From: Comamonadaceae bacterium
GTDB taxonomy: Bacteria > Pseudomonadota > Gammaproteobacteria > Burkholderiales > Burkholderiaceae_C
Reading direction: 5' to 3'
NCBI GenBank assembly: GCA_008080595.1
Contig: VIKI01000083.1
Coordinates: 1-48,921 of the forward strand
Length of the DNA: 48,921 nt
Under the pieces are notes generated by a model that worked only from the letters and a program-made list of their open reading frames with translations, ran no database searches and was not told where the DNA came from. This document shows, one piece after another, positions 17,792 to 21,336 of this stretch. Within the stretch, counting starts at the first letter, position 1, and each line of letters starts with the position of its first letter. The position numbers were made by a program, and so were the translations under genes.

Positions 17792-19120
17792 CTAAGAATT
17801 TGAGAGAATGCGACGCACCATCACCGGCATCGGTGTGCAGGCTGCATCACCGATCTGAAGACTGACCAGCAGCGCTAGCCGGGCGCGTTCGGCGCTGGCT
17901 GCATCGGCCGCGTGTACCAGCGCCAGCACGTCACCGGTGTGCACTGGCTGGCCAATCTGGGCAAACTGGGTCAAGCCCACTCGGGCATCGATGGCATCAC
18001 TGGCCTTGCGCCGCCCACCACCGAGCTCCACCACGGCCAGGCCAATGTCGCGGGTCGCCATGCCACTAACCCAGCCGCTGCGTGGTGCGGTTACCGGCAG
18101 TTGCACCGGCGCTTGCGGCAGGTAGTGGCCCGGGCGGTCGGCAAAATCAGCCGGGCCACCCAGCCCGGCTACCATGCGAGAAAAATGCTCCAGCGCCCGT
18201 CCACTGGTCACAGCCTGCTCTGCTTTCTGTAAAGCCTCCGCCTCGGTGACGGCCAGGCTACCCATCAGCAACAGCTCGGCGCTCAGGCCCAGGGTGACTT
18301 GGCTCAGGCGTGGGTCTGCGTTGCCTTTGGCTTTCAAAAAGTCGACCGCCTCCAACACTTCCAGCGCATTGCCACAGGTGTGTCCCAGCACCTGGTTCAT
18401 GTCGGTCAGCCAGGCGCGGGTGGGCAGGCCGGCACCGTTGGCAACTTGCACCAAAGATTCGGCCAGGGTGCTGGCCATGTCCATCGAGTCGGCAAACGCA
18501 CCGTTGCCGACTTTCACATCCATCACCAGGCCTTGTAGCCCGGCGGCGAGTTTTTTGGACAGGATGCTGGCGGTGATCAGCGGCACCGATTCCACGGTGG
18601 CGGTCACGTCACGAATCGCGTACAGCCTGCCGTCTGCGGGGGCCAGATCAGCAGTTTGGCCAATGATGGCGCAACCGGCGGTCTTCAGTACCCGAAACAA
18701 GTTGGCCACGTGAGGCGTGCACTGGTAGCCAGGAATACTGCCGAGCTTGTCCAGCGTGCCGCCGGTGTGGCCCAGGCCGCGGCCCGAGATCATCGGGACG
18801 ATGCCACCACACGCCGCCACGATCGGGGCCAGCATCAGGCTGACCTTGTCGCCCACGCCCCCGGTGGAGTGTTTGTCCAGAACTGGGCCGCGCAGGTCTG
18901 CAGATGTCCAGTCCATCACCAGGCCAGAGTGGGTCATGGCTTGGGTCAGGGCCACGGTTTCATCACGGCTCATGCCTTTGATGAGCATGGCCATGGCCAG
19001 CGCGGCGATCTGGCCCTCGCTCCAGGTGCCGTTGACCAGACCACGGACGAAGTGTTCGATGTGGGTGCGTAACAGCGTGTGGCCGTCGCGTTTGAGGCGG
19101 ATGATTTCCTGGGCCAGCAT
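17792..19120 (-). CDS. deoA: Thymidine phosphorylase
   Basis: A 442-residue enzyme that splits thymidine or deoxyuridine with phosphate to the base and 2-deoxyribose 1-phosphate. KHSTGGVGDKVSLMLAPIVAACGG is the family signature, with SGRGLGHTGGTLDKL carrying the phosphate and base contacts. Length matches E. coli DeoA. The start is 2 bases after the deoC stop, the last gene of the cdd-pnp-deoC-deoA operon. The product would be converted to the 5-phosphate and cleaved by DeoC; no deoB phosphopentomutase is in the window. Confidence 0.95.
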   Translation of the reverse strand: MLAQEIIRLKRDGHTLLRTHIEHFVRGLVNGTWSEGQIAALAMAMLIKGMSRDETVALTQAMTHSGLVMDWTSADLRGPVLDKHSTGGVGDKVSLMLAPIVAACGGIVPMISGRGLGHTGGTLDKLGSIPGYQCTPHVANLFRVLKTAGCAIIGQTADLAPADGRLYAIRDVTATVESVPLITASILSKKLAAGLQGLVMDVKVGNGAFADSMDMASTLAESLVQVANGAGLPTRAWLTDMNQVLGHTCGNALEVLEAVDFLKAKGNADPRLSQVTLGLSAELLLMGSLAVTEAEALQKAEQAVTSGRALEHFSRMVAGLGGPADFADRPGHYLPQAPVQLPVTAPRSGWVSGMATRDIGLAVVELGGGRRKASDAIDARVGLTQFAQIGQPVHTGDVLALVHAADAASAERARLALLVSLQIGDAACTPMPVMVRRILSNS

Positions 19121-19122
19121 GG

Positions 19123-19920
19123 TCAGTAGCCGCTTGAGATGTTGGGTGTTGTACCACTATCGCCACTCAGCACGGCTTCAATGTTGTTGAGCAGGCTGCT
19201 GGCCCCGATGCGAAAACGCTTGGCGGTCAGGGCCTCTGCACCCAGGTAGTGTTGTGTCAACGCTTCAAAAACAATAGCTTCTTGCGCAGTCTTGATGCCG
19301 CCTGAGGCCTTAAAACCTGCATGATTTTGGGCGCAGGAGTGGTTCGCGATGCATTCCAGCATCACCCGCGCCGCCTCGGGCGTGGCGTTCACCGGGGTTT
19401 TGCCGGTGCTGGTTTTCAGGAAGTCGGCCCCAGCGTCCAGCGCCAGTTGGCTGGCGCGAGAGATCAGCTCGGGCGTTTGGAGTTCGCCGGTTTCCAGAAT
19501 CACTTTCAGTACCCGGCCGGGGCAGGCTTGGCGCACTGCGCTCAGCAGGCGGGTCACAGAAGCTTCATCTCCGGCCATCAGTGCCTTGTAGGGCAGCACC
19601 ACGTCCACCTCTTGGGCTCCGGCTTGCACGATCTGCTGGGTGTCACGCACTGCCGCATCCACATCAGTGTTGCCATGCGGAAAATTGGCCACGGCGGCCA
19701 CGGCAATGTGGGGTGGCAGTTGAGCGCGGGCAAAGGCGGCCAGCCGGGGCCAGACACAGACGGCGGCGGTAGGGCCAAACGGGCTTTGGGCACGTTGGCA
19801 GAGTTTGGCAATGTCGTCTTCGGTGTCAGCGTCGTTCAGGCTGGTGAGATCCAGGCAGGCCAGGGCGATGCGGGCGCTGCTGGAGAGGTCATGTGAGCAG
19901 GTGGGGGGTGTTGTGGTCAT
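19123..19920 (-). CDS. deoC: Deoxyribose-phosphate aldolase
   Basis: A 265-residue class I aldolase that cleaves 2-deoxyribose 5-phosphate to glyceraldehyde 3-phosphate and acetaldehyde. The Schiff-base Lys is in DFLKTSTGKTPVNAT and the second catalytic Lys in GFKASGGI; VILETGE is also conserved. It is two bases upstream of deoA. Its acetaldehyde product is also the intermediate handled by EutE in the BMC locus, though the genes are far apart. The stretch encoding TAQEAIVFEA resembles the dispersed repeat core on the other strand, probably by chance. Confidence 0.95.
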   Translation of the reverse strand: MTTTPPTCSHDLSSSARIALACLDLTSLNDADTEDDIAKLCQRAQSPFGPTAAVCVWPRLAAFARAQLPPHIAVAAVANFPHGNTDVDAAVRDTQQIVQAGAQEVDVVLPYKALMAGDEASVTRLLSAVRQACPGRVLKVILETGELQTPELISRASQLALDAGADFLKTSTGKTPVNATPEAARVMLECIANHSCAQNHAGFKASGGIKTAQEAIVFEALTQHYLGAEALTAKRFRIGASSLLNNIEAVLSGDSGTTPNISSGY

Positions 19921-19966
19921 GATGGGTTTGAAGATACGTTGTGGTTTTTACCCGCACAGCGGCAGT

Positions 19967-20166
19967 CTTTGGCGACTTCCTCATACTGGGGTACCAGAAA
20001 TCGTCAGCCGCCAAAGCCAGCCACTGCGCTGGCGTTCTTGATCATTCAAAAATCGAATCAATGGGTTTGATAAACGCTCGCCCGTCCAATATCTTGCGTG
20101 GCAACTGGTATGGGCGGCCCCCGATTTCTGGTACCCCAGTATGAGGAGGCCGCCCATACCGGTTGC
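19967..20166. repeat. REP/BIME-like pair of hairpins with a shared inverted core
   Basis: Two stem-loops lie in opposite orientation. The left has arms CTTTGGCG (19967-19974) and CGCCAAAG (20009-20016). The right has 19-base arms GCAACTGGTATGGGCGGCC (20101-20119) and its complement (20148-20166, one mismatch). Each encloses the same 25-base core (CTCATACTGGGGTACCAG within it), perfectly inverted between 19979-20003 and 20122-20146. The element fills the 287-base gap between the purine nucleoside phosphorylase pseudogene and deoC. The form recalls REP doublets or a small non-autonomous element; I recognise no named family. Confidence 0.7.
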
Positions 20167-20207
20167 CGCGCACGGCGACCCGAAACAAGAGGAACCAGCA
20201 GGCAGCC

Positions 20208-20902
20208 TCAGCATGGCAACTGACCAATGATGTCCGCCAGCAAGCGGCTGGCTTTGGCGCTACCTTCCTGCGCCTGGCTCAAGGTATGGGCATGGCTCAG
20301 GTGCTCTGCCGACAGGCCCGCCCCCAGGTTGGTGATGAACGACAGCGCCAGCACGCGCAGCCCCAGGTAACGCGCCAGAATCGTCTCGGGCACGGTACTC
20401 ATGCCCACCGCATCCGCGCCCAGCAGCCGGGCCATGCGGATTTCCGCCGGGGTCTCAAACTGCGGGCCCAGGAACCAGGCATACACACCTTCAAAAAGCA
20501 TAGCGCCTTGCGCTTGCGCCACCTGCGCTGCAAGGCGTTTTAACTCTGGATCATAGGCATCCACCATGTTGACAAAACGTTCCGACCCGGTGCGGCCCAC
20601 CAAGGGAGAGCGCTGCGGCAGGTTCAGGTGGTCGCTGATCAGCATCAGGCTTTGTGGCGGCATGTCGGTGCGCAAGCTGCCGGCGGCATTGGTTTGCACC
20701 AGCGTGTGGCAGCCCAGGGCGGAAAACCCGGCAGCTCGCTGTAGGGAATCTGGATGGCCCCGGTGAGGTGATCGGTCAAACCGCCCCAGCCCGAGCCCAG
20801 CACCACCGCAATGCGGGCTTGCAGATGAGGTGCGCGTTGGCGGATGGTGTGAATCGCATCAAGGGGGGTGTTCATGGGGCGTGATTCCTGTGGCGTTGTC
20901 AT
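20208..20902 (-). pseudogene. Purine nucleoside phosphorylase, internal deletion and frameshift
   Basis: Two frames form one trimeric-type purine nucleoside phosphorylase. The first holds ARIAVVLGSGWGGLTDHL, the phosphate-binding N-terminus, and IPYSELPGFP. The second resumes with HTLVQTNAAGSLRTDMPPQSLMLISDHLN and runs to VLALSFITNLGAG. Between ELPGFP and the HTLVQTNAAG segment about 45 residues are missing, including the GR.H.YEG loop that carries catalytic His and phosphate contacts, and the frame changes there. Total coding length, about 231 residues, falls short of the roughly 277 expected. Its start overlaps the cdd stop by ATGA. As written it is non-functional, which would break purine salvage in this operon. 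Confidence 0.88.
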
Positions 20903-21336
20903 GTATTGCCCAGATGTTCCGGCCCAAAACTCTCGGGCAACAGGGCACTCAAGGTGTGGCGCGGCCCCTGCGCAGTGTCGTTGGCGCTCAGGATCGGCAT
21001 GCTTGGCGCACCAAACTCGCGTAATTTTTGGCGGCAGCCGCCGCAGGGCATCGTCCAGGCGCTGTTGTTTTTACCGCCTGGGCCGACCACCAGCACCGCC
21101 ATGGCGCGGATGCTGCCGGCCAGCACCATGGCGGCCAAGGCCGCGGCTTCGGCACACAGGCCCTCCGGGTAGGCGGCGTTTTCGACATTACACCCGGCGT
21201 GGATGCGGCCTTGGTCGTCCAGCACGGCTGCGCCAACCGGGTAGCGGGAATAGGGCGCGTAGGCCTGGCGCTGGGCATGGCGGGCGGCATCCAGCAAGGC
21301 TTGTTGCTGGGTTTCGGTGAGGGTAAAGCGGCTCAT
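20899..21336 (-). CDS. cdd: Cytidine deaminase
   Basis: A 145-residue enzyme converting cytidine or deoxycytidine to uridine or deoxyuridine. The zinc site is CAEAAAL plus PCGGCRQ, and CNVENAAYPEGLCAEA is the substrate region, as in homotetrameric cytidine deaminases. It is the first gene of the nucleoside salvage operon and overlaps the phosphorylase gene by 4 bases. Deoxyuridine from this step feeds DeoA directly. Confidence 0.93.
   Translation of the reverse strand: MSRFTLTETQQQALLDAARHAQRQAYAPYSRYPVGAAVLDDQGRIHAGCNVENAAYPEGLCAEAAALAAMVLAGSIRAMAVLVVGPGGKNNSAWTMPCGGCRQKLREFGAPSMPILSANDTAQGPRHTLSALLPESFGPEHLGNT

Follow-up and report, generated by a model that had tools for sequence, protein, structure and literature searches.

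Hairpins sharing an inverted core between pnp and deoC belong to a dispersed, patchy repeat family of the Comamonadaceae

The window analysed here, a stretch of 48,921 nucleotides from a Comamonadaceae bacterium, contains a nucleoside operon on its minus strand in which a palindromic element separates two genes (order cdd, pnp, element, deoC, deoA). The question raised by this locus is why two hairpins with unlike stems should share one core and what such an arrangement is for. The first-pass annotation had described the same 25-base core in opposite orientation, perfect in both hairpins, between pnp and deoC, and this description was confirmed. A 24-base match with three or fewer mismatches was obtained in 0 of 100 shuffles of the window. 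Folded as DNA, the left hairpin reaches -25.7 kcal/mol on the minus strand and -18.7 on the plus strand (z -5.8 on the better strand), and the right hairpin -36.0 kcal/mol on the plus strand and -33.2 on the minus strand (z -9.1 on the better strand). The strand reading CGATTT..TATGAG, which is the minus strand of the left hairpin and the plus strand of the right one, gives the more stable fold in both cases and is the presumed folded strand. The coordinates of all features are collected in Table 1.

Table 1. Features of the paired-hairpin element and its neighbours, in positions of the window.
Feature	Position	Strand	Basis or remark
Whole paired-hairpin element	19950..20177	.	about 230 bp, feet included; slightly longer than first reported
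Left hairpin, beta-type stem GGCGRCTTC-core-TCAGCCGCC	19952..20031	-	fold, stem type at other loci and strand asymmetry
Core copy 1, CCTCATACTGGGGTACCAGAAATCG	19979..20003	+	sequence match
Middle segment between the hairpins	20032..20094	.	sequence varies from element to element
Right hairpin, alpha-type stem	20095..20173	+	arms 20095-20131 and 20136-20172
Core copy 2, inverted and identical to copy 1	20122..20146	-	sequence match
cdd	20899-21336	-	operon member
pnp (PNP_UDP_1 phosphorylase), upstream neighbour	20208..20876	-	PF01048, E 5.3e-36 for 20208-20699
deoC (deoxyribose-phosphate aldolase), downstream neighbour	19123..19920	-	PF01791, E 1.8e-29
deoA	17792-19120	-	operon member

No intrinsic terminator, meaning a hairpin followed by a U tract, was found on the minus strand of the operon, and one weak candidate lies on the plus strand. 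A scan of the locus against Rfam returned no credible match near the element; a known RNA family was rejected since only miRNA matches at chance level, far below the gathering score, were obtained.

One explanation for a repeated core at a single locus would be a one-off local duplication in the operon, by chance or as an artefact. The source genome taken alone fits this, since its only copy is the one described here and the exact core is absent elsewhere (two cores, one element, in an assembly that is about 89% complete). A core unique in its genome and absent from relatives had been named in the first-pass annotation as a sign of such an event; the uniqueness stood, while the absence from relatives gave way to a wide distribution. 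The exact 24-mer occurs in at least 119 stretches of public species genomes, and more than 100 places in other genomes show the same architecture, which refutes the one-off duplication and leaves it with a negligible probability.

The hairpin family is dispersed, patchy and confined to some genomes of one bacterial family. Among the matches listed, only Rhodoferax, Polaromonas, Limnohabitans, Curvibacter and unnamed Comamonadaceae, Burkholderiales or betaproteobacterial records are represented. Within the source genus, whose genomes hold 0 to 43 cores each, 49 of 90 genomes carry the core, and an even sample of the Comamonadaceae contains it in 28 of 401 genomes and 14 of 141 genera. The sample of the order yielded three matching genomes, all of Comamonadaceae, and the core was found in 0 of about 290 genomes from the other families. 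Core-bearing genomes hold between one and 61 cores, the high-copy strains being G105 with 61 and G448 with 43. Carriage by viruses, phages or plasmids was rejected, as searches of viral contigs, phages and plasmids with the core gave no match in any of the three collections.

Where two cores lie close together, they follow the same order, (+) then (-), and are mostly 95-200 bp apart. Such pairs make up about half of the counted elements, and the remainder are single hairpins. Two stem types were distinguished, alpha (..ggccac-core-gtgac..) and beta (..ggcggcttc-core-tcagccgcc..), and these occur in the combinations alpha-beta, beta-alpha, alpha-alpha and beta-beta. The identity of the core in unlike stems, first noticed at pnp-deoC, is therefore true of the whole family as well. 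Stem pairing exceeds the 95th percentile of arm-swapped stems in 88% of 89 nonredundant hairpins. The ends differ between subfamilies, with ACCCGC or GCGCG-type ends at the source locus and GTACGC in G105. Rearranged versions were also seen in G105: some elements have the inner part that TACCGGTA inverted repeats enclose in flipped orientation (L303, L307 and L323 compared with L305, L313 and L319), and the hairpin types on the left and right sides come in new combinations (L161, L313, L323), which gives a mosaic structure.

The history of the pnp-deoC junction can be followed in relatives of the source genome. A close relative, G010 (L006; deoC 83% identical), carries an orthologous element in which the beta core and one arm are deleted. 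In G472 and G438 the beta hairpin alone remains at this junction, in G008 and G021 only scraps of the element, and in many other relatives pnp lies almost directly beside deoC without any sign of it. Since empty, intact and deleted versions coexist, the element appears to go back to a single insertion in this clade that predates the divergence of G010, and to have been decaying by deletions since then. Separately from the element, the reading frame of pnp is broken near 20725, with the N-terminal part in one frame and the residues from ..GFSALGCH.. in another; this break is a one-base indel near a homopolymer and represents either an assembly error or a pseudogene.

The high copy number in G105 allows core and stems to be compared within one genome. 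An alignment of fifteen full elements spans 239 columns; the ends are sharp, with GTACGCAC on one side and CGCCCG near the other, and the elements are amplified full-length units. On this alignment, RNAalifold recovered both hairpins and a third, inner hairpin. Of 58 pairs in the two outer hairpins, 27 are changed on both sides, and 96.8% of cells pair; none of 500 shuffles reached the observed values, which also collapse if the partners are slid by 1-3 columns. Divergence from the consensus amounts to 0.3% in the cores, leaving out one variable loop position, 15.6% in the stems and 18.9% in the middle, so that divergence is roughly 50-fold lower in the core than in the stems next to it. Because these elements had been detected by their cores, G105 was also searched with the middle alone, which recovered 27 elements, all with both cores and one of these cores with a small indel. 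The constancy of the core in G105 is therefore no artefact of the search. The stems are free to change provided that pairing is kept, and the core stays constant.

The core itself contains an apical stem of 4 bp, CTGG/CCAG. In G448, about 20 cores have CGGG/CCCG at this position, and several cores of G447 have GTGG/CCAC; these are two independent compensatory changes. The mismatches of the lower stems point to the strand on which the fold is constrained. Read on the CTCATA strand, and with G.T and A.C scored alike, 82 nonredundant lower stems contain 133 A.C against 27 G.T (p 5e-18, a guide only, as the stems are not evolutionarily independent samples) and 122 C.T against 6 G.A. G105 alone shows the same asymmetry (77 to 16). 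On the opposite strand, these mismatches are G.T and G.A, which a helix tolerates, and the constrained strand is therefore 5'-CGATTTCTGGTACCCCAGTATGAG. Since the two cores of an element are inverted, the constrained strands within it are opposite. It is thus shown that each hairpin is under constraint as a single-stranded fold, and on one strand in particular; the internal loop would be GATTT/TATGA with tandem G.A beside a closing C-G pair.

A pattern of this kind bears on the possibility that the hairpins are neutral palindromes, whose symmetry is kept up by hairpin template-switch correction and whose cores are homogenised by gene conversion, with no protein involved. The correction of quasipalindromes is a known mechanism, the modules are mosaic, and some middles are inverted between copies. 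Part of the stem covariation could stem from palindrome correction instead of selection, and gene conversion, which had been proposed for this locus, may contribute to the identity of the cores. Such processes nevertheless leave unexplained why the core alone is common to several genera, why it diverges so much less than the adjacent stems and why the mismatches are strand-specific, so that a purely neutral origin is considered very unlikely.

The constrained single strand could be RNA instead of DNA, in which case the hairpins would be functional elements of operon mRNAs that act in processing, stability or attenuation and are bound by an RNA-binding protein or an RNase. The strand-specific G.T wobbles and G.A pairs would suit RNA as well, and the elements lie mostly between codirectional genes (103, compared with 32 between convergent genes, 14 between divergent genes and 2 inside genes; raw counts from codon-usage gene predictions, with no genome-wide baseline). 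However, lone hairpins between codirectional genes have the constrained strand in the transcript in 14 distinct cases and outside it in 26 (22 and 32 when all are counted), where some of the lone hairpins may have undetected partners. Because there is no orientation bias towards a transcript-borne folded strand, this result favours single-stranded DNA over mRNA as the level of action. The first-pass annotation had suggested that the element could influence deoC and deoA expression; the orientation counts give no preference to such a role at the level of mRNA.

The reuse of orthologous sites across genera is the other feature that an RNA function would accommodate. With gene names assigned by eye from translations, the same junctions are occupied across genera between aldehyde dehydrogenase and DUF779 genes and between parE and parC, and within fewer lineages between boxB and boxA and between rdgB and hemW. 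At the aldehyde dehydrogenase-DUF779 junction, the copies come from several genera, have differing stems and consist of lone or paired hairpins (L017, L059, L061, L069, L096, L139, L154, L155, L160, L163, L172, L173). In samples picked by protein instead of core, the element was present at 2 of 30 loci for DUF779 and at none of 30 for parC, and at least 5-6 gains or losses were counted on the aldehyde dehydrogenase tree. This patchy presence weakens the idea of an ancestral, vertically conserved RNA, and the source genome with its two cores alone is likewise hard to reconcile with a role in operon mRNAs, which we consider unlikely. Recurrence at the same site could reflect a retained function, the transfer of the locus, or insertion and loss that happened more than once. 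It is the main observation beyond a simple mobile-element model, since random insertion does not predict it.

Recognition by a protein had been proposed from the identical cores in unlike stems alone, and this proposal is strengthened by a core that is dispersed, invariant, structurally constrained and strand-specific. The candidate named for it, a REP-associated transposase (RAYT), found no support. According to this explanation, one of the Y1 transposases of the genome itself would recognise and spread the hairpins, possibly acting in trans. At least one Y1_Tnp gene is indeed present in all 23 of the 23 genomes examined, but these include core-free genomes as well as core-bearing ones. The source genome has two Y1-transposase genes, and no core lies within 1.5 kb of either. 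Likewise, no core was found at a distance of up to about 1.5 kb from any of 32 Y1_Tnp loci, some of which are shortened by contig ends. Instead, of 23 loci with the long, RAYT-like gene type, 22 are flanked by a different repeat, GGGGTCAGA, which also adjoins one of the two Y1 genes of the source genome. Inverted doublets with compensatory changes do correspond to the layout of REPINs (PMC3116915), and the RAYT-associated GGGGTCAGA repeat is no more than 120 bp away from 34 of 316 cores, some of which are nested inside it; yet the elements have no conserved GTAG foot, and their ends vary between subfamilies. Mobilisation by a RAYT is therefore regarded as improbable.

Two further observations concern these repeats. 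In Limnohabitans-like loci (L043, L064, L140), core hairpins are nested in the GGGGTCAGA repeat, which is a GGGGTCAGATC..GATCTGACCCC palindrome flanking RAYT genes. The other Y1 gene of the source genome, G000:C14 (L002), is flanked by GTAGGAGCGGC..CCGCGA palindromes and, judged from its sequence surroundings, resembles a classical RAYT that has a GTAG-type repeat of its own.

Neither a transposase nor a recombinase gene was found inside the elements or consistently beside them. An autonomous element was rejected, as the long stretches from core to core at L043, L056, L064 and L140 contain genes of an ordinary or cargo kind and no shared transposase. Named by eye, these are a DNA methyltransferase-like gene with a companion at L056, a small gene at L064 and a metallo-hydrolase-like gene at L043. 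The pair at L056 (5484-7440, parE-parC), probably a restriction-modification pair, lies inside the element; next to it are a truncated core and a hybrid hairpin that combines one alpha arm with one beta arm. A recurrent neighbour protein was rejected too, since the recurring clusters are orthologous housekeeping neighbours. A MITE is defined by terminal inverted repeats that match a transposase and by a target-site duplication. Of these features, no target-site duplication was seen by eye; the ends in G105 are sharp, and left and right ends differ.

Taken as a whole, the source element is rather likely to be an old representative of a small, non-autonomous mobile element that is dispersed in the Comamonadaceae, and the family was probably spread by a protein that reads folded single-stranded DNA. 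The unit consists of two inverted hairpins around a variable middle. A putative trans-acting protein would recognise the folded single-stranded hairpin tip on each strand, presumably by the TACC loop, the CTGG/CCAG stem and the GATTT/TATGA internal loop. Recognition during replication or repair may then lead to the unit being copied or moved into intergenic DNA, a step modelled on the action of RAYT/TnpA on REPs. After insertion, copies would decay by deletions between or within the hairpins, and the copy at pnp-deoC would be an old one, a passenger in its operon. More tentatively, the family might form a separate class of paired single-stranded DNA hairpin elements that are read at their tips on opposite strands, mobilised by a Comamonadaceae enzyme which is neither a RAYT nor an integron integrase, and targeted recurrently to particular operon junctions.

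Among known systems, the attC sites of integrons have variable stems and constant recognition features and are read as one folded strand. The hairpins described here share the variable stem, the constant features and the single folded strand, but their constant part is apical, whereas in attC it lies in the R boxes. No integron context was noticed around the hairpins.

The closest resemblance is to REP, REPIN and BIME elements. REPs are palindromes of 20-50 nt that follow a conserved tetranucleotide, mostly GTAG (or CGTC), and TnpAREP recognises the REP strand and not the complementary one (PMC8266576). The inverted doublets called REPINs are presumed to be mobilised in trans by RAYTs and show compensatory changes in the spacer hairpin (PMC3116915, Bertels & Rainey 2011). 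With REPINs, the Comamonadaceae family shares intergenic location, inverted doublets as the usual unit, hairpins with compensatory changes, non-autonomy and decaying singlets (PMC3116915). With REP/BIME elements and TnpAREP it shares alternating orientation, mosaic modules and intergenic location (PMC8266576, PMC3733652), as well as conserved mismatches and a strand-specific fold, which in the Comamonadaceae element suggests the recognition of folded single-stranded DNA. The differences lie in tag, size, conserved part and RAYT linkage. No conserved GTAG or CGTC tetranucleotide precedes the palindrome, and the hairpins measure about 80 nt with a variable foot and stem and a fixed tip. In REPINs, the conserved part is a terminal 16-mer and both halves of the doublet fold together into one hairpin, whereas here the conserved part is the tip and each half folds into a hairpin of its own. 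Physical association with a RAYT is absent at the 32 Y1_Tnp loci, and the number of cores per genome ranges from 0 to 61.

The core string was absent from the literature searched, and the beta-proteobacterial repeat element (BRE) is the only small repeat that was reported there from Rhodoferax and Polaromonas. BREs are intergenic, 75-91 bp long, and occur in Polaromonas, Rhodoferax and other betaproteobacteria; they form direct tandem arrays, are abundant in Bordetella and have been described as VNTR (PMC3110155). Both are small intergenic repeats with moderately conserved sites (PMC3110155). No hairpin or inverted pair is described for BRE, and its tandem layout and abundance in Bordetella differ from what is seen here; by this comparison of descriptions, the hairpin family may have been partly seen before.

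Whereas the foot is what usually identifies REP-like repeats, together with a link to a RAYT, in this family the tip is fixed, the stem is free and the RAYT is not linked. For annotation, the elements account for many unassigned palindromes that separate operon genes in Rhodoferax, Polaromonas and Limnohabitans. In the high-copy strains G105 and G448, a binding protein can be searched for directly, and the strand asymmetry predicts that the putative protein binds the CGATTT strand.
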